DNA of 64,000 bases from Aestuariivirga litoralis (GTDB lineage Bacteria; Pseudomonadota; Alphaproteobacteria; Rhizobiales; Aestuariivirgaceae), in the NCBI RefSeq assembly GCF_003234965.1, contig NZ_QKVK01000002.1, positions 310,001 to 374,000 on the forward strand, given 5' to 3'. Positions 16,711 through 49,669 of the stretch are shown here, one piece after another. Positions within the stretch are counted from its first letter, which is position 1. Every line of letters starts with the position of its first letter. The notes under the pieces are model-generated. The model saw only the letters and a list, made by a program, of their open reading frames with translations. It ran no database searches and was not told where the DNA came from. A program made the translations under genes and the position numbers.

Positions 16711-16717
16711 GATGACC

Positions 16718-18125: not shown

Positions 18126-18147
18126 GCGCGGGGCTCCTGTGGCTGGG

Positions 18148-19314: not shown

Positions 19315-19325
19315 CGGAGACGGAC

Positions 19326-20468: not shown

Positions 20469-20514
20469 CGGCAGCCACGCCGGCGCCGTAACTTACCCTG
20501 ATGCACCGAATTAC

Positions 20515-20545
20515 TTGAGTAAGCCCGGCATGACCCGTGTATAGT
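20515..20545 (+). promoter_or_regulatory. Possible sigma70-type promoter of the Rap1a/Tai-like gene
   Basis: TTGAGT (20515-20520) and TATAGT (20540-20545) are spaced by 19 bp, 55 bp upstream of the ATG. A small dyad TTACT-TG-AGTAA overlaps the -35. The spacing is longer than ideal. Confidence 0.4.
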
Positions 20546-20599
20546 GCTGCACGCCTGCCGCCGAAGGCGCGGCCTTGCATGCATCTGGAGCATGGTGAA

Positions 20600-20962: not shown

Positions 20963-20974
20963 CGGGCTGATCCG

Positions 20975-22597
<1,623 letters not shown>

Positions 22598-27918: not shown

Positions 27919-29586
27919 CTATTTGGCCAGGGCGGCGTTGCGGATGTCGCTCAGGCTGCGGGCAGGCGTGATGGCCTCCGGGTCGATGAGGCAGTGGATG
28001 ATGGCCGGCTTGCCGCTGGCCCGGGCGCGCGCCAGGGCGGGGCCGAATTCGGCGGTCGCCCGCACGGTTTCGCCATGGCCGCCATAGGCGCGCGCGAGAG
28101 CCGCGAAATCCGGGTTCTTCAGCTCGGTCGCCGAGATGCGGTTGGGGTATTCCCGCTCCTGATGCATGCGGATGGTGCCATACATGCCGTTGTCGACCAC
28201 CACCACGATGACGGGGAGGTCATATTGCATCAGGGTGGCGAATTCCTGGCCGTTCATCATGAAGCAGCCGTCGCCCGCAAAGGCGATCACATTGCGGTGA
28301 GGCTGCAGCGCCTTGGCAGCGACCGAGGCCGGAACGCCATAGCCCATGGTGCCCGACGTGGGGGCGAGTTGCGAGGCGAAGGCGCGGAAGGGCCAGAAGC
28401 GGTGCACCCAGGTGGCGTAGTTGCCGGCACCGTTGCAATATACGGTGTCGGCCGGCATCACCTCCCTGAGCTGCGCCATGACGCCCGCCATCTGCAGGTC
28501 GCCCGCCGTCCTGATCTTCGACGGATCACTCCAGGCGAGATACTCGGCATGGGCGGCCTTGGGCGCGCCCGCCCAGGTGACCGTGTTGGGCTTCGGCAAT
28601 TCCGCCGCAGCGGCCGCGAAGGCCTGCGGCGTCGCCAGGATGCCGAGCCCCGCGCGATAGACCTTGTTCAGTTCCTCCGCACCCGGATGGACATGGACGA
28701 GCTTCGACCCGTCGCCCGGAATGTCGAGCAGCGTGTAGCTCTGCGACGGCATCTCGGAGAGACGGCCACCCACCAGCAGCACGAGGTCGGCATCCTTCAC
28801 CCGCTCCAGCAGCTTCGGATTGGGGCCGATGCCGAGGTCGCCCGCGAAATTGGGGTGGTCCGCGGGAAACAGCATCTGGCGACGGAAGCTCACCGCGACG
28901 GGCAGATCGAAATTCTCGGCGAAGCGCACGAGGTCGTTGACCCCCTGCTCGCTCCAGCCCGACCCGCCGGCGAGCACGATGGGGCGCTCGGCGGCGAGCA
29001 GGCGGCGCTGCAGCGCCTCCATGTCGGCCTGACCGGGCTTCATCACCACCGGCGCATAGGGCAGCGCGTCGGCCACCTCCACCTCGTCGGTGAGCATGTC
29101 CTCGGGGAGTGCCACCACCACCGGGCCGGGGCGGCCCTGGGTTGCCACATGGAAGGCGCGGCTGACGAGTTCCGGGATGCGCTCGGCGCGGTCGATCTCG
29201 ACCACCCACTTGGCCATGGAGCCGAAGACCGCCTTGTAGTCGATCTCCTGGAAGGCCTCGCGCTCCTTCATGTCGCGCGCCACCTGGCCCACGAACATGA
29301 TGAGGGGTGTGGAATCCTGCGAGGCCACATGCACGCCGCAGGAGGCATTGGTGGCGCCGGGGCCGCGCGTGACCATGACGATGCCGGGCGCCCCCGTGAT
29401 CTTGCCGGCGGCCTCGGCCATGTAGGCGGCCCCGCCCTCCTGGCGGCACACGATGGTCCTGATGTCCGCGTCATGCAGCGCGTCGAGCACCGCGAGGTAG
29501 CTTTCGCCCGGCACGCAGAAGACATGGCTCGTGCCATGGATCTTCAGCTGGTCGACGAGGATCTGGCCGCCGGTGCGCCTGGTCAT
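27919..29586 (-). CDS. Thiamine-diphosphate-dependent enzyme, acetolactate-synthase-like
   Basis: A 555-residue ThDP enzyme with all three domains: N-terminal PYR domain with the catalytic glutamate in 'VCRQEGGAAYMAEA', the central TH3 domain, and the C-terminal PP domain with the ThDP/Mg motif 'AFAGDGCFMMNGQEFATLMQYDLPVIVVVVDN'. It is not clearly IlvB, and no small regulatory subunit is nearby. It is last in a leftward run of six genes, and its start overlaps the HisD-like stop by 4 bp. It probably decarboxylates or carboligates a 2-oxoacid made by the pathway. Confidence 0.9.
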   Translation of the reverse strand: MTRRTGGQILVDQLKIHGTSHVFCVPGESYLAVLDALHDADIRTIVCRQEGGAAYMAEAAGKITGAPGIVMVTRGPGATNASCGVHVASQDSTPLIMFVGQVARDMKEREAFQEIDYKAVFGSMAKWVVEIDRAERIPELVSRAFHVATQGRPGPVVVALPEDMLTDEVEVADALPYAPVVMKPGQADMEALQRRLLAAERPIVLAGGSGWSEQGVNDLVRFAENFDLPVAVSFRRQMLFPADHPNFAGDLGIGPNPKLLERVKDADLVLLVGGRLSEMPSQSYTLLDIPGDGSKLVHVHPGAEELNKVYRAGLGILATPQAFAAAAAELPKPNTVTWAGAPKAAHAEYLAWSDPSKIRTAGDLQMAGVMAQLREVMPADTVYCNGAGNYATWVHRFWPFRAFASQLAPTSGTMGYGVPASVAAKALQPHRNVIAFAGDGCFMMNGQEFATLMQYDLPVIVVVVDNGMYGTIRMHQEREYPNRISATELKNPDFAALARAYGGHGETVRATAEFGPALARARASGKPAIIHCLIDPEAITPARSLSDIRNAALAK

Positions 29587-30908
29587 TTGTTGGTCCTCAG
29601 CAGGCGGGCGCGGGTTTCCGACACGGCATTGGCATGGCCGTCGAAGCCCTCGTAACGGGCGATGACCTCGCCGTGCCTCGCGAGCTCCGGATAGCCCTTG
29701 GCCGTGACATAGGCGACCGAGGTGCGCTTCATGAAGTCATGCACGGTGAGCGGCGAGCCGGTCTTGGCCCAGCCGCTGGTGGGCAGCACGTGGTTGACGC
29801 CGATGGTGAAGTTGCCGAGCGTCGGCGGCGTGTGGCGGCCGAGCAGGATCTCGCCCGCATTCTCGAGGCGGCCCAGATACTGGAAGGGCTCGTCGGAGTG
29901 GACGCCCAGGTGCTCCGGCGCATAATCGTTGCAGAAGGCGATGGCCTCCGCCTCGTCGCGCGCCAGCACGATGCCGCCCATCGGGCCGCCGAGCACGGCG
30001 GAGGAATATGCCACGCGCTGCTCGCCCATCTGCTTCCAGAATTCGGGGATCGCCTGCATCGCGTCCTCGGCCACCTTGCGGCTCCACGTCACGAGGAAGG
30101 CGGAGGAGTCCGGCCCGTGTTCCGACTCGATGATGAGGTCGAGGCCGGCGAGACGGCCATCGGCCGTGTCATCCGCCAGCACGATCAGCTCGCTGGGGCC
30201 CGCCGGCGTACCGACGTCGATCACATGCGAGCACAGGCGCTTGGCGGCCCCCACCCAGGGGCTTCCCGGCCCGACGACCTTTGCGCATTTGGGGATCGTC
30301 GCCGTGCCATAGGCCACCGCGGCGATGCCTTGCGCGCCGCCCGCCTTGAAGACCCTGGAGACACCCGCCATGCGCGCCGCGACCAGCGTCGCGTCATCGA
30401 TGTGTCCGTCAGGCCCGGGCGGGGTGATGATGCAGATCTCCTTCACCCCCGCCACGTGCGCGGGGATCGACTGCATCAGCACGGATGATGGGAAGGCTCC
30501 CTTGCCGCGCGGGATGTAGCAGGCGACGGAGGGAATGGCTGTGGTGCGGTCGCCTGCGAAGACGCCGGGGCGGATCTCGTGGAACCACATTTCCTCCGGC
30601 TTCTGGTCTTCGTGGAACTTGCGGATATTGGTGGCCATGAAGGCCAGCGCCTCCTTCACCTTCGGGTCGAGCGTCTTCTCGGCGCGGGCGAAGTCGGCCT
30701 CGGTGGCGGCGAGGGCATCGGCCTCCACCGGTGCCTTGTCGAACTGGCGGGCGAAGCGCGCCACGGCCGCGTCACCCTCATGGCGCACGGCGTGGATGAT
30801 GGGCTTCACCTTCTCCTCGAATTCGGTGAGGTCTGCCTCGGCGCGCTTCAGCAGCTGGTCGCGCGCGGTGCGCGTCATCTTGGAAAGGTCGTGGAAGGAA
30901 ATGGCCAT
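29583..30908 (-). CDS. HisD-like NAD-dependent dehydrogenase (catabolic paralogue)
   Basis: A 441-residue member of the histidinol dehydrogenase family. 'VACYIPRGKGAFPSSVLM', 'FKAGGAQGIAAVAYGTATIPKCAKVVGPG' and the zinc-site region 'NHVLPTSGWAKTGSPLTVHDFMKRTS' are visible. Family relatives outside histidine operons oxidise other diols, for example HpsN acting on dihydroxypropanesulfonate. No other his gene is present; neighbours are PuuE and a ThDP enzyme. A catabolic alcohol-to-acid oxidation is therefore more likely than histidine synthesis. The substrate is unknown. Confidence 0.88.
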   Translation of the reverse strand: MAISFHDLSKMTRTARDQLLKRAEADLTEFEEKVKPIIHAVRHEGDAAVARFARQFDKAPVEADALAATEADFARAEKTLDPKVKEALAFMATNIRKFHEDQKPEEMWFHEIRPGVFAGDRTTAIPSVACYIPRGKGAFPSSVLMQSIPAHVAGVKEICIITPPGPDGHIDDATLVAARMAGVSRVFKAGGAQGIAAVAYGTATIPKCAKVVGPGSPWVGAAKRLCSHVIDVGTPAGPSELIVLADDTADGRLAGLDLIIESEHGPDSSAFLVTWSRKVAEDAMQAIPEFWKQMGEQRVAYSSAVLGGPMGGIVLARDEAEAIAFCNDYAPEHLGVHSDEPFQYLGRLENAGEILLGRHTPPTLGNFTIGVNHVLPTSGWAKTGSPLTVHDFMKRTSVAYVTAKGYPELARHGEVIARYEGFDGHANAVSETRARLLRTNK

Positions 30909-30919
30909 GCTGCGTCCGA

Positions 30920-31834
30920 TCAGAGTGAGCCGAAGGTCTTGTGCCAGTGCCGCGCGATGTCGATGCGGCGCGGGATCCACACCTTGTCGTGGCCCAGCAC
31001 GTAGTCGATGAATTTCGCCAGCCCCAGCGCCCGGCCCGGCCGGCCGACGAGGCGGCAGTGCAGGCCCACCGACATCATCTTCGGCGAACCGCGGCGGCCT
31101 TCCTCATAGAGGCAGTCGAAGCTGTCCTTGAGATACTGGTAGAAATGTTCGCCGGTGTTGAAGCCCTGCGGCGTGGCAAAGCGCATGTCGTTGGCATCGA
31201 GCGTGTAGGGGATCACGAGGTGCTTGCCGCCATCCCGCTTCTTCAGGAAATAGGGCAGGTCGTCGGAGTAATCATCAGAGGAGTAGAGGAATCCGCCCTC
31301 CTCCATGACGAGCTTCGTGGTGTTCATCGAGCAGCGGCCGGTATACCAGCCGAGCGGGCGCTCGCCCGTCACCTCCGTGTGCAGCCGGATCGCCTCGGCG
31401 ATCTGGCGGCGCTCCTCGTCTTCCGGCATGTCCTTGTGCTCGACCCATTTGAGGCCGTGGCTGGCGATTTCCCATTGGGCTTCCTGCATCGCCTGCACCT
31501 GCTCGGGCGAGCGCGCCATGGCGCTGGCCACGCCATAGATGGTGAGCGGCACGCGGCGTTCGGTGAACATGCGCCACAACCGCCAGAAGCCGGCACGCGC
31601 GCCATATTCATAGATCGACTCCATGTTCCAGTGGCGCTGGCCCACCCAGGGCTGGGCGCCGACGATCTCGGAGAGGAAGGCCTCGGAGGCGGCATCGCCG
31701 TGCAGGATGTTGTTCTCGCCCCCCTCCTCGTAGTTCAGTACGAACTGCACCGCGACATGGGCGCCGCCCGGCCATTTGGGATCGGGGATCGCCCGGCCAT
31801 AGCCCTTCATGTCGCGCGGGTAGGAGGTGGTCAT
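30920..31834 (-). CDS. puuE: PuuE-type allantoinase / polysaccharide-deacetylase-fold hydrolase
   Basis: A 304-residue NodB-fold hydrolase. 'YPRDMKGYGRAIPDPKWPGG', 'QFVLNYEEGGEN', 'EYGARAGFWRLWRMF', 'IASHGLKW', 'GWYTGRCSMNTTKLV' and 'LHCRLVGRPGRALGL' follow the pattern of metal-independent allantoinase PuuE from pseudomonads almost throughout. PuuE opens the hydantoin ring of allantoin. No other ureide genes are close, so in this operon it may hydrolyse another cyclic amide. GAGGAG precedes the ATG. The symbol is given by family, not proven function. Confidence 0.85.
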   Translation of the reverse strand: MTTSYPRDMKGYGRAIPDPKWPGGAHVAVQFVLNYEEGGENNILHGDAASEAFLSEIVGAQPWVGQRHWNMESIYEYGARAGFWRLWRMFTERRVPLTIYGVASAMARSPEQVQAMQEAQWEIASHGLKWVEHKDMPEDEERRQIAEAIRLHTEVTGERPLGWYTGRCSMNTTKLVMEEGGFLYSSDDYSDDLPYFLKKRDGGKHLVIPYTLDANDMRFATPQGFNTGEHFYQYLKDSFDCLYEEGRRGSPKMMSVGLHCRLVGRPGRALGLAKFIDYVLGHDKVWIPRRIDIARHWHKTFGSL

Positions 31835-31844
31835 CGCGTGCTCC

Positions 31845-32858
31845 TCAGTAGGATACTTTCTTGTAGTAGCGCCTCGTGGTGAGCGGATGGTTGCGCTTCA
31901 CCTCGAGATGCGCCGAGAGGCGTTCGAGAATGGTGGCGAGGACCACGGGCGACACCAGCGCGCGCGTTTCCGCCGACACGCCGGGCATGGCGAAGCGCGC
32001 CGTGTCCAGCACCGTCACCTTGTCGGTGAAGTCGCGGACGAATTTTTCAACGCGGTCGGTGAGCGGGCGATAGGCATCCTCGCCCTTGAAGACGATGACA
32101 CTGACGCCCTTCTCGACGAGTTCCAGCGTGCCGTGGAAGAAATCCGCCGCATGCACGGGACGGGTCCTGATCCACTGCATCTCCTCGAGGATGCACATGC
32201 CGTAGTACCAGGCCTCGGCCCAGCTGCCGCCGGCGGCGGTGATGATGTGATAGGGCTCCGTGCGGAAGGCCTCGGCGAGGCGTTCCGCCTCCGGCTCGAA
32301 GGCCCGCTTGGCGGCGAGCAGGTGCTGCGGCAGCGTTGCGAGCTCGGCGACGGTGCCGTCATAACCGGGGAACTCGCTACGATGCGCCATGACCGAGAGG
32401 GCGACCAGCAGCGACTGGAGATAGAAGGACTCGGAAGACGTGTCGTCCTCGGCGAAGTTGACGAAGGCGTGGTCGGCCTTCAGGCCGAGCGGCGTGTCGC
32501 TGTGGCCCACCAGGGCGATGACGGTGGCGCCGCGCTCCCTGCAATAGTCCAGGGTCGCCACCGACTCCTTCGTGGTGCCCGAAAGTGACGGGATCACCAC
32601 GATCGAATCCCTGCCCAGCGCATGATGGCCGCTGGCGACGAGTTCCGCCGCGATTTCCATGAAGGCCGGAAAGCCCGAGCGGCGCTGCAGCATCAGGGCT
32701 GCCGGCTGCATCAGGATCGCCGCACCGCCGGTGCCGAGGAAGAAGATGTTCTTCGCACCCCCGGCCAGCGCAGCGCCGATGGCGGCATGGATCGGGCCTG
32801 CCAGCGCCAGTGCGCCGGACTGGATTGCCAGGAAGCGGTCACGATCGAAGTTCAGCAT
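31845..32858 (-). CDS. SIS-domain sugar isomerase/deglycase (FrlB-like)
   Basis: A 337-residue protein with two SIS phosphosugar-binding domains. 'NIFFLGTGGAAILMQ' and 'IVVIPSLSGTTKESVATLDYCRERGATVIAL' form the first; 'TAAGGSWAEAWYYGMCILEEMQW' with 'FFHGTLELVEKGVSVIVF' the second. This layout matches fructoselysine-6-phosphate deglycase FrlB and the glucosamine isomerase half of GlmS, enzymes that act on amino-linked sugars. The start overlaps the TerC stop by one base and PuuE follows after 10 nt. Confidence 0.87.
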   Translation of the reverse strand: MLNFDRDRFLAIQSGALALAGPIHAAIGAALAGGAKNIFFLGTGGAAILMQPAALMLQRRSGFPAFMEIAAELVASGHHALGRDSIVVIPSLSGTTKESVATLDYCRERGATVIALVGHSDTPLGLKADHAFVNFAEDDTSSESFYLQSLLVALSVMAHRSEFPGYDGTVAELATLPQHLLAAKRAFEPEAERLAEAFRTEPYHIITAAGGSWAEAWYYGMCILEEMQWIRTRPVHAADFFHGTLELVEKGVSVIVFKGEDAYRPLTDRVEKFVRDFTDKVTVLDTARFAMPGVSAETRALVSPVVLATILERLSAHLEVKRNHPLTTRRYYKKVSY

Positions 32859-33517
32859 CAGGTGAGCACCGGATAGAGTTCGAGAATGCCGCGCCAGATC
32901 ATGTCGAGCGCCACATAGAGGATGATGGCGAGGCCGACATAGGCGATCCAGCGGTGGCGGTTGAGCAGCCGGGCGATGAAGGAAGCGGCAAGGCCCATCA
33001 GCGCAATCGACAGCGCGAGGCCGATGACCAGCACGCCCGGGTGCTCGCGCGCCGCACCGGCGACGGCGAGCACGTTGTCGAGCGACATCGAGACATCGGC
33101 GACGATGATCTGCCAGGCCGCCTGGGCGAAGCTCTTGCGCGGCGCGCCGCCGGCGATGGCGCCGTCGGCGTTGACGTCCTCGCCGGTGACGGCTTCGACT
33201 CCGGCTTCCTCGCCATGGCCGTCGCGCAGCTCGCGCCACATCTTCCAGCTGACCCACAGCAGCAGGATGCCGCCGATGAGGATGAGGCCGAGGAGCTGCA
33301 TCAGCTGGGTGGCGATGCCGGCGAACAGGATGCGCAGCACGGTGGCCGCGATGATGCCGACGAAGATCGCCTTGTTGCGCTGGTCCCGGGGCAGGCCCGC
33401 CGCGGCAAGGCCGATGACCACCGCATTGTCGCCCGCCAGCACGAGGTCGATCATGATGACCTGGCCCAGCGCCCAGAGGGCCTCGCCCGTCAGCAGGGAC
33501 TGCACGAATTCAAGCAT
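32858..33517 (-). CDS. TerC-family integral membrane protein
   Basis: A 219-residue membrane protein with about seven helices. 'VIMIDLVLAGDNAVVIGLAAAGLP' and 'IIVADVSMSLDNVLAVAGAA' are the paired acidic DN motifs of the TerC/Alx family, members of which export manganese. An acidic/histidine-containing loop (GHGEEAGVEAVTGEDVNAD) lies mid-protein. A strong AAGGAG precedes the ATG. It is oddly placed inside a catabolic operon, with its stop overlapping the SIS gene start. Confidence 0.92.
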   Translation of the reverse strand: MLEFVQSLLTGEALWALGQVIMIDLVLAGDNAVVIGLAAAGLPRDQRNKAIFVGIIAATVLRILFAGIATQLMQLLGLILIGGILLLWVSWKMWRELRDGHGEEAGVEAVTGEDVNADGAIAGGAPRKSFAQAAWQIIVADVSMSLDNVLAVAGAAREHPGVLVIGLALSIALMGLAASFIARLLNRHRWIAYVGLAIILYVALDMIWRGILELYPVLT

Positions 33518-33591
33518 GTGATACTCCTTGCGGCTTTCAGCACCAACGGGGCGGAAAGCGCAAGGGTTTCCTGCGGGTGAGCCCTATGCGC

Positions 33592-34419
33592 TCAGGTGAT
33601 CCGCTTGATCGAGGCGGCGATTTCCTGGGGTTCGAAGACTCGCTTCCAGTCGTCCCGCATCAGCATGGGCTTGCCGAAGGTGATGGCCTTGTTGCAGGCG
33701 TCCGAGAACACGCCCGGCTGCTCCTTGAAGATCACCGCGGCCAGGATGTTCATGTGGCCCAGGAGGAAGTCGCGCGCCGCCTCCGCCGGGACGCCGCGGG
33801 CCACTACCTCGTCCATTGCCTCGCGCATGACGTCGAGGAGCGAGGCGACCACGGTTTCGGACAGGCCCGGCTCCAGCAGCGCCATCTGCTCCACCGTCAC
33901 CCGGTGCGAGCGCATGACGGGGGCCCAGATGGTGCGCGCCACCTCCTCGCCCAGCGCATAGTGCTCCTCCGGCCCCTGCATGAGGGCGGAGACGATGTGC
34001 TGCTTCGCCGCGATGCCGCCGAAACGGTCGAGCTTCGCCTCCATAACCGTCTCGTCGTTGAAAATCGGCGGGTGGCAGGGGTGGGTGACGAAATAGGTGA
34101 GGTCCGGCCGCTCCGGCAGATGACCCGCAAAGGGCGCCGCGGCGTCGAGCACGACGACCATGGTGCCGGGCTTCAGCAGGTGGTTGATCGACTGGGCCAC
34201 CTTGCCGATGTGGGTGTCCGGCACCGCGAGGATGGCCACCTCGGCGTCGGCCAGCGCCACCTCGGGCGAGACGCATTGCACGCCGAAATCCTGCGCCAGC
34301 CGCGCCCGGCCCGGCTCGCTCACCTCGACGTGCCGAACGGTGAAGGCGGAGTCCTTCAGGTTGCGGGACAGGCGGTGGCCCATTTTGCCACCAGCCCCGA
34401 AGAGAGCGATTGACGTCAT
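33592..34419 (-). CDS. NAD-binding oxidoreductase, D-apionate oxidoisomerase-like (PGDH_C domain)
   Basis: A 275-residue protein with an N-terminal Rossmann fold (MTSIALFGAGGKMGHRLSRNL) and a helical domain that resembles the phosphogluconate-dehydrogenase C-terminal family, with 'YFVTHPCHPPIFND' and 'LGHMNILAAVIFKEQPGVFSDACNKAI'. ApnO, which converts D-apionate to 3-oxo-isoapionate, belongs to this family. The presence of apionate lactonase in the divergent operon supports such a role. It is first in the leftward operon, 103 bp from the divergent aldolase. The exact substrate is inferred. Confidence 0.8.
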   Translation of the reverse strand: MTSIALFGAGGKMGHRLSRNLKDSAFTVRHVEVSEPGRARLAQDFGVQCVSPEVALADAEVAILAVPDTHIGKVAQSINHLLKPGTMVVVLDAAAPFAGHLPERPDLTYFVTHPCHPPIFNDETVMEAKLDRFGGIAAKQHIVSALMQGPEEHYALGEEVARTIWAPVMRSHRVTVEQMALLEPGLSETVVASLLDVMREAMDEVVARGVPAEAARDFLLGHMNILAAVIFKEQPGVFSDACNKAITFGKPMLMRDDWKRVFEPQEIAASIKRIT

Positions 34420-34458
34420 GCAGAAACCTCGGATAGCGTTTAGCTCTGCTTACATGCT

Positions 34459-34473
34459 ACTGGTATGACAAGT
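34459..34473. promoter_or_regulatory. GntR(FadR/FCD)-type operator in the divergent promoter region
   Basis: ACTGGTATGACAAGT has the dyad form ACTnGTnnnACnAGT and contains TGGTATGACAA, which fits the TNGTNNNACNA core of FadR-subfamily GntR regulators. It lies in the only gap between the leftward ApnO-like operon and the rightward aldolase/ABC operon, so one regulator could control both. No GntR gene is in the window. Confidence 0.55.
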
Positions 34474-34522
34474 CAATCAGTGTGACCCGGAGCCAACCGG
34501 GCCGTTTGGGAGGACGACCCCG

Positions 34523-35293
34523 ATGGGGCTCAAGGAACTCGCGCGCGCGCCGGGGCCGAAGATCGGCAATTTCATCGTCGAGTTTGCCACGCCGGGCATC
34601 GGCCACATCATCAAGGCTGCGGGGCTCGACTTCGCCTTCTTCGACATGGAGCACTCGGGCTTCTCCTTCGAGACGCTGAAGAGCGCCATCCGCTATTTCG
34701 AGGCGGCCCAGGTGCCGCTCATCGTGCGCGTTCCCGCCCAGGAGAACGACATGCTGGCCCGGGCCTGCGACATGGGCGCGGAGGGGCTGATCGCGCCGAT
34801 GATCTCAACACGCGCCCAGGCGCAGGCGATGGTCGATTCGGTGAAGTATTTCCCGGAAGGCAAGCGCGGGGTGGGCCTGCAGATGGCCCATGACAACTAC
34901 CGCGCCGCACCGGTGGCGGATGCCCTGAAGGCCGCCAACGCCCGCACCGCCGTGATCTGCCTGATCGAGACGGCGGAAGGGGCCGAGAACGTCGATGCCA
35001 TCGCATCGGTGAAGGGTGTCGACGGCTTGTGGGTCGGCCACTTCGACCTTTCGGTGTCGCTTGGCATTCCGGGCGAGTTCACCCACCCCGCCTTCACCGC
35101 CGCCATCGACCGCATCGTCGCGGCGGCCGGGAGCCACGGCAAGTTCCTCGGGCGGCTGGTGCCCACCCCCGAAGCGGGCATCGCCTTCTACAGGCAGGGC
35201 TTCGACTTCATCTGCTATTCCGGCGACATCTGGGTGCTGCGCGACGGGCTGGCAGCGGCGGGCAAGGCGATCCGCGAGGGGGTGAAGCCATGA
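34523..35293 (+). CDS. HpcH/HpaI-family class II aldolase
   Basis: A 256-residue TIM-barrel aldolase. 'LDFAFFDMEHSGFSFETL' carries the conserved catalytic-site acid and histidine, 'VPLIVRVPAQENDMLARACDMGAEGLIAPMI' and 'VICLIETAEGAENVDAIASVKGVDGLWVGHFDLSVSLG' are the metal-ligand segments (E and D). Such enzymes split hydroxy-oxoacids into pyruvate plus an aldehyde (GarL, HpaI). GGGAGGA precedes the ATG. It opens the rightward operon and overlaps the next gene by 4 bp (ATGA). Confidence 0.92.
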   Translation: MGLKELARAPGPKIGNFIVEFATPGIGHIIKAAGLDFAFFDMEHSGFSFETLKSAIRYFEAAQVPLIVRVPAQENDMLARACDMGAEGLIAPMISTRAQAQAMVDSVKYFPEGKRGVGLQMAHDNYRAAPVADALKAANARTAVICLIETAEGAENVDAIASVKGVDGLWVGHFDLSVSLGIPGEFTHPAFTAAIDRIVAAAGSHGKFLGRLVPTPEAGIAFYRQGFDFICYSGDIWVLRDGLAAAGKAIREGVKP

Positions 35294-36333: not shown

Positions 36334-36340
36334 AGGAGAA

Positions 36341-36359
36341 TTCCCCGGCCAACGGGGAA
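36341..36359. terminator. Short hairpin between dehydrogenase and binding-protein genes
   Basis: TTCCCCG and CGGGGAA form a perfect 7-bp stem around GCCAA, 7 nt after the dehydrogenase stop. It may separate the enzyme genes from the transporter genes or act as a weak attenuator. Confidence 0.4.
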
Positions 36360-36407
36360 ACACGAATGGCTGCCGTGGGGCCGCCGTTCACAATGGGAGG
36401 AAGGACG

Positions 36408-37865: not shown

Positions 37866-37874
37866 GCATGCCGC

Positions 37875-37902
37875 GTGTCCCTCCCCCCGCGGGGAGGGAC
37901 AC
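37875..37902. terminator. Strong hairpin after the binding-protein gene
   Basis: GTGTCCCTCCCC and GGGGAGGGACAC pair perfectly over 12 bp around CCGC, starting 9 nt after the stop codon. There is no U-run. It probably stabilises the binding-protein transcript and lowers expression of the permease genes behind it. Confidence 0.75.
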
Positions 37903-37955
37903 CGCTTCTGCCTGACCCTTGCCGGGCGGCGCAATTCACGGGACAAAGGGACGGC

Positions 37956-38357
37956 ATGTCACTCGAGCCCCTCATCACCGCATCGCTGCCCGTCCAGATT
38001 CATGCCTTTGCGGCGCTGGCGGCACTGGTGCTGGGTGCCGCGCAACTCCTCCGCCGCAAGGGCGGCGGGGCTCATCGCGCCATGGGTTATGTCTGGGCGA
38101 CCCTGATGCTGGTGATCGCGATATCCGGACTGTTCATCCATGAAATCCACATGATCGGGCCGTTCAGCCCCATCCACATTCTGTCGCTGGTCATCCTGGT
38201 CACCGTGCCGCTGGGCGTCATCCGCGCCCGGCAAGGCAGGATCGTTGCCCACCGCAGCACCATGCTGAACATCTATTGGATCGCCCTCGTCGGGGCAGGC
38301 CTTTTCACCATGCTGCCTGGCCGGATCATGGGCCAGGTTCTGTTCGGAACCCACTAG
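37956..38357 (+). CDS. DUF2306 membrane protein
   Basis: A 133-residue protein with four hydrophobic helices and the motif 'LLRRKGGGAHRAMGYVWATLM' together with 'RIVAHRSTMLNIYW', typical of DUF2306. AAAGGG precedes the ATG. It lies between the binding-protein and permease genes, and the MalF-like start follows its stop codon with no gap, which is unusual for an ABC operon. Function unknown. Confidence 0.85.
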   Translation: MSLEPLITASLPVQIHAFAALAALVLGAAQLLRRKGGGAHRAMGYVWATLMLVIAISGLFIHEIHMIGPFSPIHILSLVILVTVPLGVIRARQGRIVAHRSTMLNIYWIALVGAGLFTMLPGRIMGQVLFGTH

Positions 38358-39242
38358 ATGCAGCTTGCAGCCCACCACCCGCCGGACCGGAACTTCAAGT
38401 ACTGGATCATCGCGCCCGCGGTGTTCCTGCTGCTGGCGGTCGGGCTGTTCCCGCTGATCTATTCACTCGTCGTGTCCTTCATGCGCATCGACATGATGGA
38501 CACCGACACTTCCTTCGCGGGTCTCTACAATTACAAGCAGTTGTTCAAGGATGCGCGGCTCTGGCAGTCGCTGCTCCACACCCTGATCATCACCGCCGTG
38601 GCGCTGCCGCTGGAACTGATCCTCGGCCTCGCCATGGCCTATCTCTTCCTCGAGCGCATGCCGGGGCGGCAGATCTTCGTGTCGCTGCTGGTGCTGCCCA
38701 CCATCATCTCGCCCATCGTGGCGGGCGCCACCTGGCGGCTGCTGCTCGACAACCAGTATGGCCCGATCAACCAGATCCTCGGCTGGTTCGCGGGCCAGCG
38801 GGTGAACCTGCTGTGGACGATCAATCCCCACCTCGTCTATCCCGCCATCATCTTCTGCGAGATCTGGCAGTGGACGCCCTTCATGTTCCTGATCCTGCTC
38901 GCGGCCCTCTCCAACGTCGACAAGTCGCAGACGGAAGCCGCCGAGATCGACGGCGCCTCCTTCCTGCGCACCTTCCGCTACATCGTGCTGCCGGCGATCT
39001 GGCCGGTCATGGCGATTGCCATCCTGATCCGCGGGCTCGACCTGTTCCGCATCTTCGACATCATCTGGGCGCTCACCATGGGCGGGCCCGGCACCATGAC
39101 CGAGACGATCTCGATCTATACCTATAACCAGGGCTTCAAGCAGTTCGAGACGAGCTACACGGCGGCCATCGCCTTCCTCGTCATCGCCATCCTTACCGTC
39201 GTCGTCACCTGGGCCATCCGCAGAATGGGACTCGCCAAATGA
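38358..39242 (+). CDS. Sugar ABC transporter permease, MalF/UgpA-like
   Basis: A 294-residue permease with six helices. The EAA loop is 'EAAEIDGASFLRTFRYIVLPAIWPVMAIA', matching the carbohydrate importer family. It begins directly after the DUF2306 stop and overlaps the second permease by 4 bp (ATGA). Confidence 0.94.
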   Translation: MQLAAHHPPDRNFKYWIIAPAVFLLLAVGLFPLIYSLVVSFMRIDMMDTDTSFAGLYNYKQLFKDARLWQSLLHTLIITAVALPLELILGLAMAYLFLERMPGRQIFVSLLVLPTIISPIVAGATWRLLLDNQYGPINQILGWFAGQRVNLLWTINPHLVYPAIIFCEIWQWTPFMFLILLAALSNVDKSQTEAAEIDGASFLRTFRYIVLPAIWPVMAIAILIRGLDLFRIFDIIWALTMGGPGTMTETISIYTYNQGFKQFETSYTAAIAFLVIAILTVVVTWAIRRMGLAK

Positions 39243-40081
39243 GCGCCACCCTGCCCTTCCACCGCAGGCCGGGAACACGGCTGGCCCTGCGCTATCTGCT
39301 GGCGCTGGTCCTCACCGTGATCTTCGTCTTCCCGGTCTACTGGCTCTTCATCATCTCGTTCAAGACGCCGGACGAGATCTTCGCCTTTCCGCCGGTGTGG
39401 TATCCGAAATCGCTGCAGCTCGCGAACTACCATGTGCTGTTCAAGGACGGCGATGCAGCCACCGTCGGCAACAGCCTGATCCTCGCCTCGGTGTCGACCT
39501 TCTTCGCCATGATCCTCGGCACCATTGCGGCCTACAGCCTGGTGCGCTTCCGGACGGGGGGCGAGAACCTGGCGGTGTGGATCATCTCGCAGCGCATGAT
39601 GCCGCCGGTGGCGATCGTGTTCCCGATCTTCCTCGTCTATGTCTGGCTTGGCTGGGTCGACACCTATGTCGGGCTCATCGTGCTCTACACCGCCTTCTCG
39701 CTGCCCTATGTCATCTGGATGATGCGCGGCTACATCGAGGACATTCCGCTGGAGCTTGAGGAATCGGCGCTGGTCGACGGCTGCACGCGCGCGCAGGTGC
39801 TGTGGAAGGTCGTCTTCCCCATGGCGCGCACCGGGCTCTTCGCCACCGCCGTCTTCACCTTCGTCTTCGCCTGGAACGACTTCCTCTTCGCGCTGGTGCT
39901 GACGCGCACCGAGGTGACCACCTACACCGTGCAGGTGACGCATTACTTCGGCGGCCAGTCGAACTTCTGGGCCAAGATCGCCGCCATGTCGGTGCTGGGC
40001 ACCATTCCCGTTTTCTTCACCGTCGCGGTGATGCAGCGCTACCTGGTGCGCGGCATCTCCATGGGCGCCGTGAAGGGCTAA
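39239..40081 (+). CDS. Sugar ABC transporter permease, MalG/UgpE-like
   Basis: A 280-residue permease with six helices and the EAA loop 'EESALVDGCTRAQVLWKVVFPMARTGLFA'. 'WYPKSLQLANYHVLF' is the usual periplasmic segment before helix 2. It forms the heterodimer with the MalF-like partner. Confidence 0.94.
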   Translation: MSATLPFHRRPGTRLALRYLLALVLTVIFVFPVYWLFIISFKTPDEIFAFPPVWYPKSLQLANYHVLFKDGDAATVGNSLILASVSTFFAMILGTIAAYSLVRFRTGGENLAVWIISQRMMPPVAIVFPIFLVYVWLGWVDTYVGLIVLYTAFSLPYVIWMMRGYIEDIPLELEESALVDGCTRAQVLWKVVFPMARTGLFATAVFTFVFAWNDFLFALVLTRTEVTTYTVQVTHYFGGQSNFWAKIAAMSVLGTIPVFFTVAVMQRYLVRGISMGAVKG

Positions 40082-40099
40082 GAGATTGAAGGGCTAGAG

Positions 40100-41173
40100 A
40101 TGTCGGACCTCAAGATCACCAAGCTCAACAAGCATTATGGTGCCTTCCATGCGGTGAAGGGCATCGACCTCGAGGTGCCGTCGGGCGAGTTCACCGTGCT
40201 GGTGGGGCCTTCGGGCTGCGGCAAGTCAACCCTGCTGCGCACCATCGCGGGGCTGGAGGAAGCAAGTTCCGGCACGGTCGAGATCGGCGGGCAGGACGTG
40301 ACCTGGGCCAGGCCGCGCGACCGCAACATCGCCATGGTGTTCCAGAACTACGCGCTCTACCCCTATCTCAACGTGAAGGACAACATCGCCTTCGGCCTGC
40401 GCTCGCGCAAGGTGGCGGAAGCGGAGGTCGAGAAGCGGGTGAAGCGCGCCGCCGAGATGCTGGGGATCGCGCATCTCCTCGCCCGCTTCCCGCGCGAGCT
40501 TTCGGGTGGGCAGCGCCAGCGCGTGGCCATCGGCCGGGCCATCGTGCGCGACGCCATCCTCTATCTCTTCGACGAGCCGCTCTCCAACCTCGATGCGCAG
40601 CTGCGCGACGACATGCGCGTCGAGATCAAGCGCCTGCACCAGGAGCTTGGCCGCACCATGATCTATGTGACGCATGACCAGATCGAGGCCATGACGCTCG
40701 CCGACCGCATCGTGCTGCTGCGCGACGGGCTGATCGAGCAGCAGGGCGCACCGCTCGACCTGTTCGAAAGGCCGAAGACGCGCTTCGTCGCGGGCTTCCT
40801 CGGCAGCCCCAAGATGAACTTCATTCCCGCCACCCTCACCGAAACCGGCGTGGCTTTGAGCGACGGCACGGCGCTCGAACTGCCGGGCCGCAGGGGGCTC
40901 AAGGCGGGCCAGGCCGTGGTGCTGGGGCTGCGGCCGCAATATATCTCGATGGCGGGACAGGCGCTGGCGCCGGGCCACGCCCGCGTGCCCGTCACCATCG
41001 AGCTCGTGCAGCCCACCGGTTCGCGGGTGCAGGCCACCATGCCGCTGGGCGGCGCCTCGATCATCGCCGAACTCGCCGCGCATGATGTTTCCCGCCCCGG
41101 CGAGCGGACGGCGATTGACATCGACATGACACGTGCGGTCATCATCGATCCCCAGAGCGAACAGGTCATTTGA
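40100..41173 (+). CDS. Sugar ABC transporter ATP-binding protein, UgpC/MalK-like
   Basis: A 357-residue ATPase with GPSGCGKST, 'IAMVFQNYALYPYLNV', LSGGQRQRVAIG, LYLFDEPLSNLDAQLR and VTHDQIEAMTLADR. The C-terminal regulatory OB-fold region (about 240-357) is complete. It follows the MalG-like gene by 18 nt and overlaps no other gene. Confidence 0.95.
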   Translation: MSDLKITKLNKHYGAFHAVKGIDLEVPSGEFTVLVGPSGCGKSTLLRTIAGLEEASSGTVEIGGQDVTWARPRDRNIAMVFQNYALYPYLNVKDNIAFGLRSRKVAEAEVEKRVKRAAEMLGIAHLLARFPRELSGGQRQRVAIGRAIVRDAILYLFDEPLSNLDAQLRDDMRVEIKRLHQELGRTMIYVTHDQIEAMTLADRIVLLRDGLIEQQGAPLDLFERPKTRFVAGFLGSPKMNFIPATLTETGVALSDGTALELPGRRGLKAGQAVVLGLRPQYISMAGQALAPGHARVPVTIELVQPTGSRVQATMPLGGASIIAELAAHDVSRPGERTAIDIDMTRAVIIDPQSEQVI

Positions 41174-41181
41174 GGACACCC

Positions 41182-43149
41182 ATGGCGAAGAGCACCCTCA
41201 CCCGCGCAGTGAAGCTGACCGGCACCGACGTGGCCGAAGGCAAGCGCCGCACCCTGACGGCGGGGCCGATCACCGCCATGTTCGACAATGGCGCGCTGCG
41301 CTACATCCGCTACCGGGGCGCCGAGGTGCTGCGCGGCATCGCCTATCTGGTGCGCGACAAGGACTGGGGCACCTATGCGCCGGCCATCGAGAACCTCAAG
41401 ATCAGGCAGGGCAAGGACGGCTTCTCCATCAGCTATGCCGCGACCACGAAGGACAAGGCGCAGGGCCTCCATTACGTGGCGAAGATCGAGGCCAGCGCGA
41501 AGGGCACGCTGAGCTTCACCGTCACCGGCACGCCGCTCACCGACTTCCTCACCAACCGCACCGGCTTCACCATTCTCCACCCGCTCAACGGCGTGGTCGG
41601 CGAGCCCGTGGAGATCGTCCACACCGACGGCCGCAAGAAGAAGGGCCGCTTCCCCAAATTCATCAGCCCCGGCCAGCCGGTGTTCGAGATCCGCTCGCTG
41701 AAGCACCAGGTGGTGCCCGGCGTCACCGCCACGGTGCTGATGGAGGGCAACAAGTTCGAGATGGAGGACCACCGCAACTGGATGGATGCCTCCTACAAGA
41801 CCTATGTCTGCTCGCTGCTCGACCCCTGGCCCTATACGCTGAAGAAGGGCGAGGCCTTCACCCAGACGATCACCGTGACGATCGAGGGCAAGCCCGCGGC
41901 GAAGAAGGGCGCCAGGGCGGCCTCGGGCCTCGGCGTCGATGTGGGCGGGGTGAAGGGCATGATCCCGGCCATCGGCGTGGGCGTGCCCATGGCGGAAGCC
42001 GCCCATGCGCTCGCCAAGGCCGACCTCATCGCCGCCATGGATGCCAATCACCTCGTCTGCCAGATCGACGGGCGCCAGAAGAACCAGCGCGAGGCCGCGG
42101 CCGCCTTCCGCGAACTGCGCGAGCGCACCGGGGCCCTCTCCTTCCTCGAGATCGTGCTGCCCGCGAAGAAGCCCGCGGCGGAGGAAGTCGCCGCCATCGC
42201 CAAGGAGCTGCGCGCCGCGGATTACAAGCCCGATGCCATCGTGGTCACGCAGGTGCATGACCTCAAGTCCTTCCAGCCCAACACGCCGCGCCCCTGGGGG
42301 CCGAGCTACGAGGAAATGGCGGCGGCGGTGCGCAGGGAATTTCCCGGCGTCACGCTGGGCGGCGGCATGCTGTCCTTCTTCACCGAACTCAACCGCAAGC
42401 CGGTGCCGAAGGGCGTGTTCGACTTCATCACCCACACGGTGTGCCCCATCGTCCACGCGGCGGACGATATCTCGGTGATGGAGACGCTGGAGTCGCTGCC
42501 CTCCATCATCGCCTCCACCCGCAACATGATCGGCAAGGACACGCCCTATCTGCTGGGGCCTTCCTCCATTCCCTGTCGCGACAATCCCTATGGCGCGGTG
42601 GTCTCCGCCAACCCTGGCAATTCCCGCGTCTGCCTCGCCGACATGGACCCGCGCCAGCGCGGCCTCTTCGCCGCGGCGTGGAATGTGGGCCTGCTCGCGG
42701 CCTTCGCCAAGGGCGGGCTCGATGCCGTGGCGCTGGGCGCCGTCACCGGCCCGCAAGGTGCCATCTACCGCAAGGCGGAGCATGCGCAGCCCTGGTTCGA
42801 TGGCGCCAGGGCCGAGGTCTATCCCACCTATCACGTGCTTGCTGGCCTTGCGGCGGCGAGCGGCAACCGCCGGCGCGACGCCGTGTCCAGCGCGCCCTCC
42901 ACCATCGCGGCCGTGGCGCACAAGTCGCCCGAAGGCAGCGAAGTCTGGCTCGCCAATCTCACGCCCGAGGCGCAGAAGGTGAAGGTCTCGGGCCTTGAAG
43001 GTGCCGCCGAAATCCACCGCCTGTCGGATGCCAACTTCCAGAAGCTGGCGACGACGCCCGACTTCCTGCTCGGCCAGGGCGAGAGGGTGAGGAAGGTTTC
43101 GGGCGTCGAGCTCGGCCCCTATGGCGTGGTCCGCATCCGCACGGCCTAG
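41182..43149 (+). CDS. apnL: D-apionate lactonase (ApnL family)
   Basis: A 655-residue protein. The N-terminal half is beta-rich ('PITAMFDNGALRYIRYRGAE', 'HPLNGVVGEPVEIVHTDGR', 'MEDHRNWMDASYKTYVCSL') and the C-terminal half is a TIM-barrel-like region ('FDFITHTVCPIVHAADDISVMETLES', 'GPSSIPCRDNPYG'), the arrangement I recognise from D-apionate lactonase, which opens D-apionolactone to D-apionate. GAGGACACCC precedes the ATG; a TTG four codons earlier overlaps the ATPase stop and is less likely. It sits between the ABC importer and the kinase, as in sugar-acid operons. Family assignment is from memory of the pattern. Confidence 0.8.
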   Translation: MAKSTLTRAVKLTGTDVAEGKRRTLTAGPITAMFDNGALRYIRYRGAEVLRGIAYLVRDKDWGTYAPAIENLKIRQGKDGFSISYAATTKDKAQGLHYVAKIEASAKGTLSFTVTGTPLTDFLTNRTGFTILHPLNGVVGEPVEIVHTDGRKKKGRFPKFISPGQPVFEIRSLKHQVVPGVTATVLMEGNKFEMEDHRNWMDASYKTYVCSLLDPWPYTLKKGEAFTQTITVTIEGKPAAKKGARAASGLGVDVGGVKGMIPAIGVGVPMAEAAHALAKADLIAAMDANHLVCQIDGRQKNQREAAAAFRELRERTGALSFLEIVLPAKKPAAEEVAAIAKELRAADYKPDAIVVTQVHDLKSFQPNTPRPWGPSYEEMAAAVRREFPGVTLGGGMLSFFTELNRKPVPKGVFDFITHTVCPIVHAADDISVMETLESLPSIIASTRNMIGKDTPYLLGPSSIPCRDNPYGAVVSANPGNSRVCLADMDPRQRGLFAAAWNVGLLAAFAKGGLDAVALGAVTGPQGAIYRKAEHAQPWFDGARAEVYPTYHVLAGLAAASGNRRRDAVSSAPSTIAAVAHKSPEGSEVWLANLTPEAQKVKVSGLEGAAEIHRLSDANFQKLATTPDFLLGQGERVRKVSGVELGPYGVVRIRTA

Positions 43150-43152
43150 ACC

Positions 43153-44412
43153 ATGATCCTGGGCTGCATCGCCGACGACTTCACCGGGGCCACCGACCTC
43201 GCCAACACGCTCACCCGCCGCGGCATGCACACGGTGCAGACCATCGGCATTCCGCAGGGCGCTGCCCCCGAGGCCGATGCCGTGGTGGTGGCGCTGAAGT
43301 CGCGCACCGTTCCGGCAGCGGAGGCCGTGGCGCAGTCGCTCGCCGCCTGCCGCTGGCTGAAATCCCATGGCGCGCGCCAGATCTTCTTCAAGTACTGCTC
43401 GACCTTCGATTCGACGGATGCTGGCAACATCGGCCCGGTGGCCGATGCGCTGCTCGACGCGCTGGGCGCGGGCTTCACCATCGCCTGCCCGGCCTTCCCG
43501 GAGAACGGGCGGAGCATTTATCTGGGCCACCTCTTCGTGGGCGGCGAACTCCTGTCCGACTCGCCCATGAAGAACCATCCGCTCACCCCCATGCGCGATG
43601 CCAGCCTCGTGCGCGTGCTGGGGCGGCAGACGCCGCACAAGGTGGGGCTGGTGCCCTACCGCACGGTGAAGCAGGGTGCCCCCGCCATCGCCGAAGCCTA
43701 TGCATCGCTCGCGGCGCAAGGCATCCGCCACGCCATCGTCGATGCGCTGGAGGACCGCGACCTGGAGCACATCGGTGCGGCGTCCTCCGCCTTGCCGCTC
43801 ATCACCGGCGGTTCGGGCGTCGCCATCGGACTGCCGCAGAACTATCTCACGGCGCGGCTCATCCCCAGGCGTGAGGGGGCGGCGGCGCTGGACAAGGTCG
43901 GCGGGCCCGGCATCGTGCTGTCTGGCTCCTGCTCCGCCGCCACGCTGGGCCAGGTCGAGCGCTTCGCCGCCACGCACCCTGCACGGGCCATCGACCCGGC
44001 GGCCCTGGCGGCCGATCCGGAGGCGACGGTGCGCGATCTTCTCGCCTGGGCCACGGCCGCGCTGAAGCAGGGCCCGGCCCTGATCTATGCCTCGGCCCCG
44101 CCCGACAAGGTGGCCGCGGTGCAGGCGCAGTTCGGCCGCGACAGAGCAGGCGCGATGATCGAGCAGGCGATCGCCCGGCTCGCCCAGGGCCTTGCCGCTG
44201 ACGGCGTGCGGCGCTTCGTGATCGCGGGCGGGGAAACCTCCGGCGCAGTGGTTTCGGCGCTGAAGGTCGAGGCGCTCGAGATCGGGCCGCAGATCGCACC
44301 CGGCGTTCCGGCCTGCCTCGCCCATGGCGCGCCGCGTTATGCGCTGGCGCTCAAATCCGGCAACTTCGGCGGCCCGGACTTCTTCGGCCAAGCCCTCGAG
44401 GCACTGGCATGA
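43153..44412 (+). CDS. Four-carbon acid sugar kinase family protein (DUF1537; OtnK/OiaK-like)
   Basis: A 419-residue kinase. 'CIADDFTGATDLANTL' is the N-terminal DUF1537 signature, 'FFKYCSTFDSTDAGNIGPVADAL' the substrate site, and the nucleotide-binding half has 'LSGSCSAATLGQVERF' and 'VIAGGETSGAVV'. Members phosphorylate 3-oxo-tetronate (OtnK) or 3-oxo-isoapionate (OiaK). Next to ApnL the OiaK role is attractive; next to an OtnC-like aldolase the OtnK role is equally so. Stop and next start overlap by 4 bp. Confidence 0.88.
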   Translation: MILGCIADDFTGATDLANTLTRRGMHTVQTIGIPQGAAPEADAVVVALKSRTVPAAEAVAQSLAACRWLKSHGARQIFFKYCSTFDSTDAGNIGPVADALLDALGAGFTIACPAFPENGRSIYLGHLFVGGELLSDSPMKNHPLTPMRDASLVRVLGRQTPHKVGLVPYRTVKQGAPAIAEAYASLAAQGIRHAIVDALEDRDLEHIGAASSALPLITGGSGVAIGLPQNYLTARLIPRREGAAALDKVGGPGIVLSGSCSAATLGQVERFAATHPARAIDPAALAADPEATVRDLLAWATAALKQGPALIYASAPPDKVAAVQAQFGRDRAGAMIEQAIARLAQGLAADGVRRFVIAGGETSGAVVSALKVEALEIGPQIAPGVPACLAHGAPRYALALKSGNFGGPDFFGQALEALA

Positions 44413-45044
44413 GCGAGGCACAGGCGCGTGAGCTGATCTGCGAGATGGGCCGCTCGATGTTCGAGCGAAGGCTGACCTTCGGCTCCTCCGGCAACATCTC
44501 GCTGCGCACCGATGACGGCTGGCTGATGACGCCCACGGGCTCGTCCCTCGGCCGGCTGGACCCCGCCCGCCTGTCGAAGCTCGATGACACGGGCAGGCTC
44601 GTCAGCGGCGATGCGCCCACCAAGGAAAGCTTCCTGCACCTCGCCATGTATCGCGAGCGGGCGAAGGCGGGTGCCGTGGTGCACCTCCATTCCACACACT
44701 CGGTGGCCGTCTCCTGCCTCGACGGCATCGACCACGAGGACGTGCTGCCGCCGATCACCGCCTATTACGTGATGCGCGTGGGCAAGCTGCCGCTGATCCC
44801 CTATTACGCGCCCGGCGACAAGGCGCTGGGCGAGGCCGTGGGCCGCGCCGCCGCCAGACACAATGCCATGCTGCTGGCCAATCACGGCCCGGTGGTGGCA
44901 GGCACCAGCCTCTCCGCCGCGGTCGATGCCATCGAGGAGCTGGAGGAGACGGCGCGGCTCTACCTGCTCCTGCATGGACGCCCCACACGCTACCTGACGC
45001 CGGAACAGGTGGAGGACCTGAAGCGCCGCTTCCCGCCGCAGTAG
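44409..45044 (+). CDS. Class II aldolase/adducin-fold decarboxylase (OtnC-like)
   Basis: A 211-residue metal-dependent aldolase-fold enzyme. 'GSSGNISLRTDDGWLMTPTGSSLG' is the phosphate-binding region, 'PTKESFLHLAMY' holds the catalytic glutamate, and 'VVHLHSTHSVAV' plus 'LLANHGPVV' give the zinc histidines. OtnC decarboxylates 3-oxo-tetronate 4-phosphate to dihydroxyacetone phosphate. Coupled by ATGA to the kinase gene, it should act on the kinase product. In known apionate pathways that step uses a RuBisCO-like protein, which is absent here. Confidence 0.9.
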   Translation: MSEAQARELICEMGRSMFERRLTFGSSGNISLRTDDGWLMTPTGSSLGRLDPARLSKLDDTGRLVSGDAPTKESFLHLAMYRERAKAGAVVHLHSTHSVAVSCLDGIDHEDVLPPITAYYVMRVGKLPLIPYYAPGDKALGEAVGRAAARHNAMLLANHGPVVAGTSLSAAVDAIEELEETARLYLLLHGRPTRYLTPEQVEDLKRRFPPQ

Positions 45045-49154: not shown

Positions 49155-49159
49155 GCCTG

Positions 49160-49573: not shown

Positions 49574-49669
49574 GGCCACTCTTCCCCACTGGCATATAAA
49601 TGGCCTCTGAGCTTATGTGGTGAGCAGGCAGCACACAAGGCGGCACCGGCGCGTGACGCGGGAGACGGA

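Follow-up and report, generated by a model that had tools for sequence, protein, structure and literature searches.

Evidence for two probable neighboring modules, a proposed apionate regulon and an unrelated operon, at one locus of the Aestuariivirga litoralis genome

Introduction

Do the genes on either side of one short divergent promoter region in Aestuariivirga litoralis serve a single catabolic pathway, or have unrelated genes become neighbors? The question is raised by a 64,000-nucleotide stretch of contig NZ_QKVK01000002.1 (positions 310,001 to 374,000), here called the window and numbered from its first nucleotide. Leftward from the gap at 34420-34522 run genes for the D-apionate oxidoisomerase ApnO, a TerC-type membrane protein, a sugar isomerase (SIS) domain protein, the allantoinase PuuE, the histidinol dehydrogenase HisD, and a thiamine diphosphate (ThDP) enzyme. 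Rightward run genes for an aldolase, a 2-hydroxyacid dehydrogenase, an ABC importer, a variant of the lactonase ApnL, and the tetronate enzymes OtnK and OtnC. A preliminary description of this DNA had read the whole as one pathway starting from a more complex apiose-like or amide-linked compound. Its account of the layout was accurate: the left-hand open reading frames, all on the minus strand, are separated by exactly 74, -1, 10, 11, and -4 bp, the divergent gap measures the 103 bp claimed, and family scans returned the enzyme classes it had named.

Its single pathway fared less well. We consider it probable that the region comprises two neighboring modules, namely, an apionate regulon with a recruited importer block and a tetronate tail, beside an unrelated operon. 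Gene identities, synteny, an operator-like motif, and gene copy numbers, all read directly from the sequence, carry the argument, and from them we infer substrates, regulator-operator binding, and the direction of cassette movement. The HisD search reported below covered 61 genomes, 37 of the genus (including the window's own genome, G000, a 4.23-Mb assembly in 26 contigs) and 24 from outside it. Other G numbers denote comparison genomes, L numbers denote loci, and g numbers are gene labels from the clustering of loci.

Results

Passages of a published account (PMC11747546) attribute D-apiose/D-apionate catabolism to a five-enzyme set, ApsD, ApnL, ApnO, OiaK, and OiaX. The gene immediately left of the divergent gap (33592-34419, minus strand) encodes a PGDH_C-family protein (PF16896, 248 bits) that is 79.6 to 81.5% identical to homologs in three annotated apiose-type clusters of Shinella and Sinorhizobium, the best match being to a Shinella protein over its full length (81.5%). 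In all three of these clusters, apnO is accompanied by a ribose-type importer, a Gfo/Idh-type dehydrogenase, and a protein of ApnL size, and in the two from Shinella, OiaX and a DUF1537 kinase come next. Because its homologs at this level of identity sit in classical apiose-type clusters, the window gene is, on homology, a D-apionate gene, and to that extent the apiose link proposed earlier is borne out. Homologs of ApnO are present in 251 plasmid records. Within the genus, apnO (at least 76% identity) occurs in 19 of the 37 genomes and an ApnL match, of either the classical or the block type, in 24; seven of these 24 are without apnO at that threshold, one of them (G005) having a 50% homolog.

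An oiaX gene lies elsewhere in G000 (C12:394629-395900; 768.8 bits against a cut-off of 700), beside the gene for a second DUF1537 kinase (C12:393.9 kb) that is OiaK-like (430.4 bits, short of the cut-off of 700). A divergent gene for a NanR-type GntR regulator adjoins oiaX, and this locus (G000:C12:393-397 kb) is 51 kb from the apnO promoter. The two promoter regions share an operator-like motif: the gap between oiaX and the GntR gene holds CTGGTATGATGAG, and the gap between apnO and the HpcH-type aldolase gene of the window holds the core CTGGTATGACAAG (34460-34472). The exact word CTGGTATGAYRA occurs three times across the 4.23 Mb of G000, once at each of these two promoters and once within a coding gene, and the reversed control occurs nowhere. 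Among relatives, the core CTGGTATGAYRAG was present in all seven sibling apnO/HpcH junctions examined, CTGGTATGATGAGTCAA precedes apnO in Sinorhizobium meliloti, G019, G024, G027, and G058, and one-base variants of the core were found in Shinella HZN7 and G004. Since the motif is common to the apnO/HpcH and oiaX/GntR promoters, apnO, the right-hand block, and the distant oiaX/OiaK-like locus appear to form one regulon. The motif is probably bound by the predicted NanR-type GntR protein encoded beside oiaX.

The left-hand genes tell a different story once their surroundings are compared among genomes. The order in the window is g10-ThDP-HisD-PuuE-SIS-TerC, then apnO to OtnC, an island at 45051-50806, and g14-hyuB-hyuA-lacI-iolG. 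In G031, TerC is followed directly by g14, lacI, and hyuA, and in G025 it is followed directly by g14, iolG, lacI, and hyuA. In both, the interval is free of apnO and of the right block, and apnO had no match in either genome at the threshold used. Because the TerC block adjoins the same downstream genes where ApnO and the right block are missing, the idea that a complex apiose-like or amide-linked compound is broken down by one pathway, in which SIS, PuuE, HisD, and the ThDP enzyme are peripheral activities, is unsupported. What speaks for that idea is the tight left-hand gene spacing, an apnO-TerC junction found in nine genomes counting the window's own, and the co-occurrence of the left ThDP gene with apnO across the 37 genus genomes (10/12 versus 9/25; Fisher p = 0.013, uncorrected for kinship). 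It is opposed, in addition to G031 and G025, by the variable membership of the block, which in G025 consists of TerC, HisD, and ThDP only, SIS and PuuE being absent from it, and by G011 and G034, where PuuE is encoded elsewhere, outside the left block. The right block, moreover, is found without the left one in at least six genomes of the genus (G002, G004, G005, G010, G023, and G024), and the HisD and PuuE genes of the window are the only copies found in G000. We rejected the one-pathway reading, which we consider very improbable, on the strength of synteny and of these single-copy, housekeeping-type genes.

The gene for the TerC/YjbE-type protein (32858-33517, minus strand; TIGR03717, 219.7 bits against a cut-off of 134.8) also has an upstream region of its own (33518-33591, minus strand). 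An element of the form CTTGCGC...GTTGGTGCTGAAAGCC, its spacing constant, is recognizable there in each of the 11 aligned genomes, even in G031 and G025, which have no upstream apnO; base changes within it occur in G006, G025, G028, and G034. With its own conserved upstream element, the set of genes from TerC onward can probably be transcribed independently. We considered and discarded a known RNA, such as a manganese riboswitch, upstream of TerC, as an Rfam search of 33300-34700 gave one chance-level match (22.4 against a gathering score of 75). The 74-bp gap folds as a single strand more stably than its shuffles (z of -2.38) and weakly as an alignment (-5.8), and we claim no RNA; a promoter/terminator consensus scan was uninformative. 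Taken together, TerC, SIS, PuuE, HisD, and ThDP most likely constitute a block separate from the apionate genes. The earlier placement of the last four in the apionate pathway, like a start from a more complex amide-linked compound, is unsupported in view of the synteny of G031 and G025, the TerC element, the sole copies of HisD and PuuE, and the company of SIS genes in Amadori-type clusters described below.

PuuE (30920-31834, minus strand) scores 543.1 bits against a cut-off of 424.6 for TIGR03212, matches the solved PuuE 3cl6, and is most likely an ordinary allantoinase. It is the single match in G000 at an E value of 1e-40 or lower, and PuuE was matched in 31 of the 37 genus genomes, two of the matches being partial. 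We also considered whether PuuE is a purine-cluster member in relatives, which was clear in only one of the eight neighborhoods fetched (G004, with guanine deaminase and OHCU decarboxylase), so only the allantoinase identity is claimed. In G011 and G025, the gene adjoins a branched-chain-type importer and what reads as a hydantoin-racemase-like gene (the G011 one had no NCBIfam match), the G020 neighborhood yielded a single gene call, and the rest of the eight were scattered.

The SIS protein (31845-32858, minus strand; PF01380) resembles Amadori-type deglycases. Of the best 80 among its 323 relatives, eight belong to genus genomes that carry the left block, and in seven of these apnO stands beside it. 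The remaining 72 loci include L109 from a genus genome, and the SIS gene was called in 71. Within six genes of it, 61 of the 71 have a GntR gene, 51 a PfkB kinase gene, and 57 amino-acid importer or FAD-oxidoreductase genes, with Pfam names taken from one representative per cluster. As these neighbors match the frlB/frlD make-up of Amadori operons given in passages of PMC12632257, the gene is putatively of Amadori type. The FrlB model PRK11382 was not reached (82.9 against a cut-off of 430), the closest solved relatives are 2a3n/8glr, and no PfkB kinase or importer gene stands beside SIS in the left block of the window. In one of the 72 loci, L171 of Sinorhizobium americanum (15000-21011), the SIS cluster is at most 10 kb from genes for ApnL and a DUF1537 kinase.

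At the far end of the block, the ThDP enzyme (27919-29586, minus strand) belongs to the PRK08199 subfamily (NF006052, 903.7 bits against a cut-off of 539). At an E value of 1e-150 or lower, it occurs in 12 of the 37 genus genomes; it is HisD-adjacent in 10, with contig breaks in G006 and G035.

HisD (29583-30908, minus strand; TIGR00069, 438.9 bits against a cut-off of 243.8) is divergent. The best HisD scores 532 to 575 bits in 23 of the 24 out-of-genus genomes, the exception being G049 (456), and at most 481 bits in all 37 genus genomes. In HpsN, passages of PMC11382572 give Gln248 and Asp352 as metal ligands and a diagnostic His in the 122-126 motif as its mark; our own alignment was used to map these positions onto HisD. 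At the two ligand positions, Glu and Asn stand in every one of the 25 genus genomes, out of 37, that were read out, and Gln and Asp stand in all 23 canonical rows, a Gln-to-Glu/Asp-to-Asn pair that looks compensatory. The catalytic Glu-His pair (PEH motif) and both metal-binding His residues are kept in the window protein. In the tree, the 25 genus sequences, G049, and two extra copies make one group on a long branch (100/99).

These features invite the alternative that the left-block protein is a catabolic HisD-like dehydrogenase, of HpsN type or a sugar-alcohol oxidase, histidine being made by some other means. The depth of the branch and the altered ligands fit such a role, and related second HisD copies adjoin binding-protein importers in G018 and G029. 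Yet PF00815 matches no other gene in G000, and likewise none but the counterpart in each of G025, G028, and G031; G000 also encodes HisG and HisB; and the nearest solved relatives are HisDs, with HpsN scoring lower. The HpsN-type role specifically was rejected, as the marking His is absent (PRGKGAFPSS; the second HisD of G001 has GGRYAH). We therefore judge a catabolic role improbable. The window HisD most likely makes histidine, given that it is the only PF00815 match, that HisG and HisB are present, and that the His marking HpsN is absent; the genus appears to have replaced the canonical enzyme by a divergent, metal-site-altered form.

On the right-hand side, all genes are on the plus strand and the classes listed in the preliminary description hold, although one gene was overlooked. 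The HpcH/HpaI-type 2-oxo-acid aldolase (34523-35293) scores 106.1 bits for PF03328 and 140.4 for HpaI, under the latter's cut-off of 368.8, and the D-2-hydroxyacid dehydrogenase (35290-36333; PF02826, 184.9 bits) has glyoxylate reductase and phosphoglycerate dehydrogenase as its nearest solved relatives; neither reached an equivalog cut-off. The importer comprises a solute-binding protein (36408-37865; PF01547, 111.7 bits), two permeases (38358-39242 and 39239-40081; both PF00528), and a UgpC/MalK-type ATPase (40100-41173; PF00005 and PF17912). The overlooked gene, between those for the binding protein and permease 1, encodes a DUF2306 membrane protein (37875-38357; PF10067, 61.6 bits against a cut-off of 31.6) with no counterpart called at the same place in the clustered sibling loci; a PADLOC scan of the protein gave nothing.

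The next protein (41170-43149) is an apionolactonase-like member of the ApnL family, as claimed, and at 622.9 bits it falls short of the ApnL equivalog cut-off of 750 (NF049900). Only one of seven ApnL relatives scanned, the classical Shinella protein (818.2 bits), exceeds that cut-off; the other six score 568 to 652 bits, the G027 one being a shorter reading of 533 aa. A profile search of the PDB returned only two chance-level matches for ApnL (E values of 0.55 and 0.57).

The DUF1537 kinase (43153-44412) was correctly classed and can now be called more sharply a 3-oxo-tetronate kinase, OtnK (NF043035, 616.3 bits against a cut-off of 350), and not OiaK (141.4, cut-off 700). The following class II aldolase-type decarboxylase (44409-45044; PF00596), described before as OtnC-like, is above the OtnC cut-off (NF043034, 328.3 against 250). 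OtnI of G000 is encoded about 51 kb from otnC, at C12:405.6 kb (348.4 bits against a cut-off of 325). LtnD had no match in the window or in three other stretches of the same genome (the rest was unsearched), and none adjoins OtnKC. Beyond OtnC, the island that extends to g14 encodes two glycosyltransferases, an HPr-kinase-like protein (below cut-off), a nucleotidyltransferase, and unknowns.

The TerC-ApnO pair with the divergent HpcH-to-ApnL block is found on one contig also in G001, G018, G028, G029, and G034, and this recurrence, which bears out a conserved neighborhood, indicates that the arrangement is more than chance. The right block also travels alone. It occurs in G002, G010, and G023, genus genomes without an apnO match, in part (to the contig end) in G017, and in other families in G049 and, with a different gene order, G059. 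Plasmids of Mesorhizobium ciceri and Bradyrhizobium CB82 carry the series HpcH, dehydrogenase, binding protein, two permeases, ATPase, and ApnL, with GntR in front. The ApnL proteins there are 43% and 65% identical, and no apnO is annotated near these blocks, the whole genomes being unsearched for it. The block's own GntR gene is preceded by the apionate-type motif CTGGTATGATAAG in G059 and directly by a sister motif, CTGGTATGACAGG, in G004 and G023. At the window and sibling junctions, there is no GntR or antibiotic biosynthesis monooxygenase (ABM) domain gene before HpcH, and the block has its promoter region in common with apnO. On this comparative evidence, the aldolase, dehydrogenase, importer, and ApnL variant are a conserved unit in their own right, which goes undescribed, and its chemistry unassigned, in the literature passages that were examined. 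Elsewhere, the block often includes a small ABM-domain protein, by Pfam in Mesorhizobium and by reading in G004, G005, G010, and G023. One such protein (L252:8839-9144, between GntR and the aldolase) scores 38.1 bits for the LsrG isomerase model (cut-off 135).

Such a unit could be more than an accessory to ApnO. It might constitute an ApnO-independent route for D-apionate or a related branched aldonate, parallel to the ApnO route in the window, in which the substrate would pass through the importer and the ApnL variant, be converted to 2-oxo-apionate through oxidation of C2 by the 2-hydroxyacid dehydrogenase, be split by an HpcH retro-aldol reaction to formaldehyde and 2-oxo-tetronate, and reach dihydroxyacetone phosphate through OtnI, OtnK, and OtnC. 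Control would lie with a GntR protein that recognizes an operator resembling the one at classical apionate genes. We hold this route unlikely and still worth setting out, for it uses every enzyme gene of the block and explains both the occurrence of the block without apnO, in the genomes and plasmids just named, and its joining to OtnKC in the genus. The motif before the G059 regulator gene fits as well. In G010 and G023, OtnK and OtnC come directly after the block and are followed by an L-threonate-dehydrogenase-type gene (440.7 against a cut-off of 350 in G023, by reading in G010; G005 is similar by reading), and passages of PMC12540250, which lay out tetronate catabolism as a four-step scheme, treat Aldolase_II OtnC as the 3-oxo type that partners OtnI, which G000 encodes. 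On the other hand, the retro-aldol step is a prediction, the dehydrogenase and aldolase lack an equivalog match above cut-off, and no OtnK/OtnC was seen in the stretches fetched around the Mesorhizobium, Bradyrhizobium, G002, G049, and G059 blocks. For the two plasmid blocks, the absence of apnO covers the neighborhood only, and an L-threonate dehydrogenase beside OtnKC equally fits plain threonate use. In G025, a gene for S-(hydroxymethyl)glutathione (formaldehyde) dehydrogenase (L094:5305-6384; 579.7 against a cut-off of 544) lies next but one to apnL, a weak hint that may be chance, as this apnL is about 8 kb from HpcH/HADH.

Discussion

We thus favor two modules, in which the right block is recruited to an apionate regulon, and envisage the following. 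The apnO gene and the divergent importer/ApnL block would fire from one promoter region bearing the operator-like motif. The importer would bring in apionate or apionolactone, the ApnL variant would open the lactone, and ApnO would make 3-oxo-isoapionate, which the distant OiaK-like kinase would phosphorylate and OiaX then decarboxylate. OtnI, OtnK, and OtnC would convert tetronate-derived 3-oxo-tetronate to dihydroxyacetone phosphate. TerC-SIS-PuuE-HisD-ThDP would be an independent operon, beside which the apionate cassette was set down.

It is also important to weigh the observations that sit less comfortably with this proposal. Both the window ApnL variant and the OiaK-like kinase are under their equivalog cut-offs, and the structure model of ApnL (mean pLDDT of 41.1) was not used. 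Apiose dehydrogenase gave matches of only 22 to 23% identity in the window and three other stretches of its genome (the rest was unsearched). As to the motif, an exact core is missing before apnO in Shinella zoogloeoides, the oiaX/GntR site agrees less closely in G019 and G024, and none was seen in G004; the shorter word TGGTATGA also turns up away from apionate promoters, for example, inside apnL of G025 and Mesorhizobium. G031 lacks the ApnO-to-ApnL block that G028, its neighbor in the HisD tree, carries at the same spot, which requires that the block has been lost as well as gained. Lastly, apnO and TerC are co-oriented and 74 bp apart, which makes read-through or common control possible. 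The co-occurrence of ThDP and apnO is a further point against the proposal.

If correct, this interpretation replaces a puzzling mixed pathway with two testable modules. The operator-like motif would link dispersed apionate genes across several Hyphomicrobiales, and the conserved importer-aldolase-dehydrogenase-ApnL block may offer another means of using apiose, a sugar of plant cell walls. The locus is also a warning that gene spacing alone can fuse unrelated neighbors, and it has drawn attention to a genus whose histidine appears to be made by a HisD altered at its metal site.

Comparison with known systems

With the D-apionate system, the window and its genome share an ApnO ortholog, an ApnL family member, an OiaX above cut-off, and an OiaK-like kinase, and the operator-like motif is also found at apnO of Sinorhizobium meliloti. 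They differ in that the genes are split over two loci 51 kb apart, that ApnL is divergent and goes together with an importer of UgpC type, an aldolase of HpcH type, and a 2-hydroxyacid dehydrogenase, and that OtnK/OtnC stand beside ApnL instead of OiaK/OiaX. The L-threonate/D-erythronate pathway (LtnD, OtnI, OtnK, and OtnC) is represented by OtnK and OtnC in the operon and by OtnI about 51 kb away, all above cut-offs, whereas LtnD is not beside the window OtnKC and is present in G023 (above cut-off) and in G005 and G010 (by reading). The SIS gene is orthologous to one that in Amadori/fructosamine operons of the frlB-frlD type is accompanied by a PfkB kinase, GntR, and an amino-acid importer, whereas the left block of the window is without kinase, importer, or regulator. 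Finally, the window HisD resembles known histidinol dehydrogenases in exceeding the TIGR00069 cut-off and in its catalytic Glu-His pair and both metal-binding His residues, and it departs from them in that Glu replaces Gln, and Asn replaces Asp, at two further metal-ligand positions, and in forming a separate clade.

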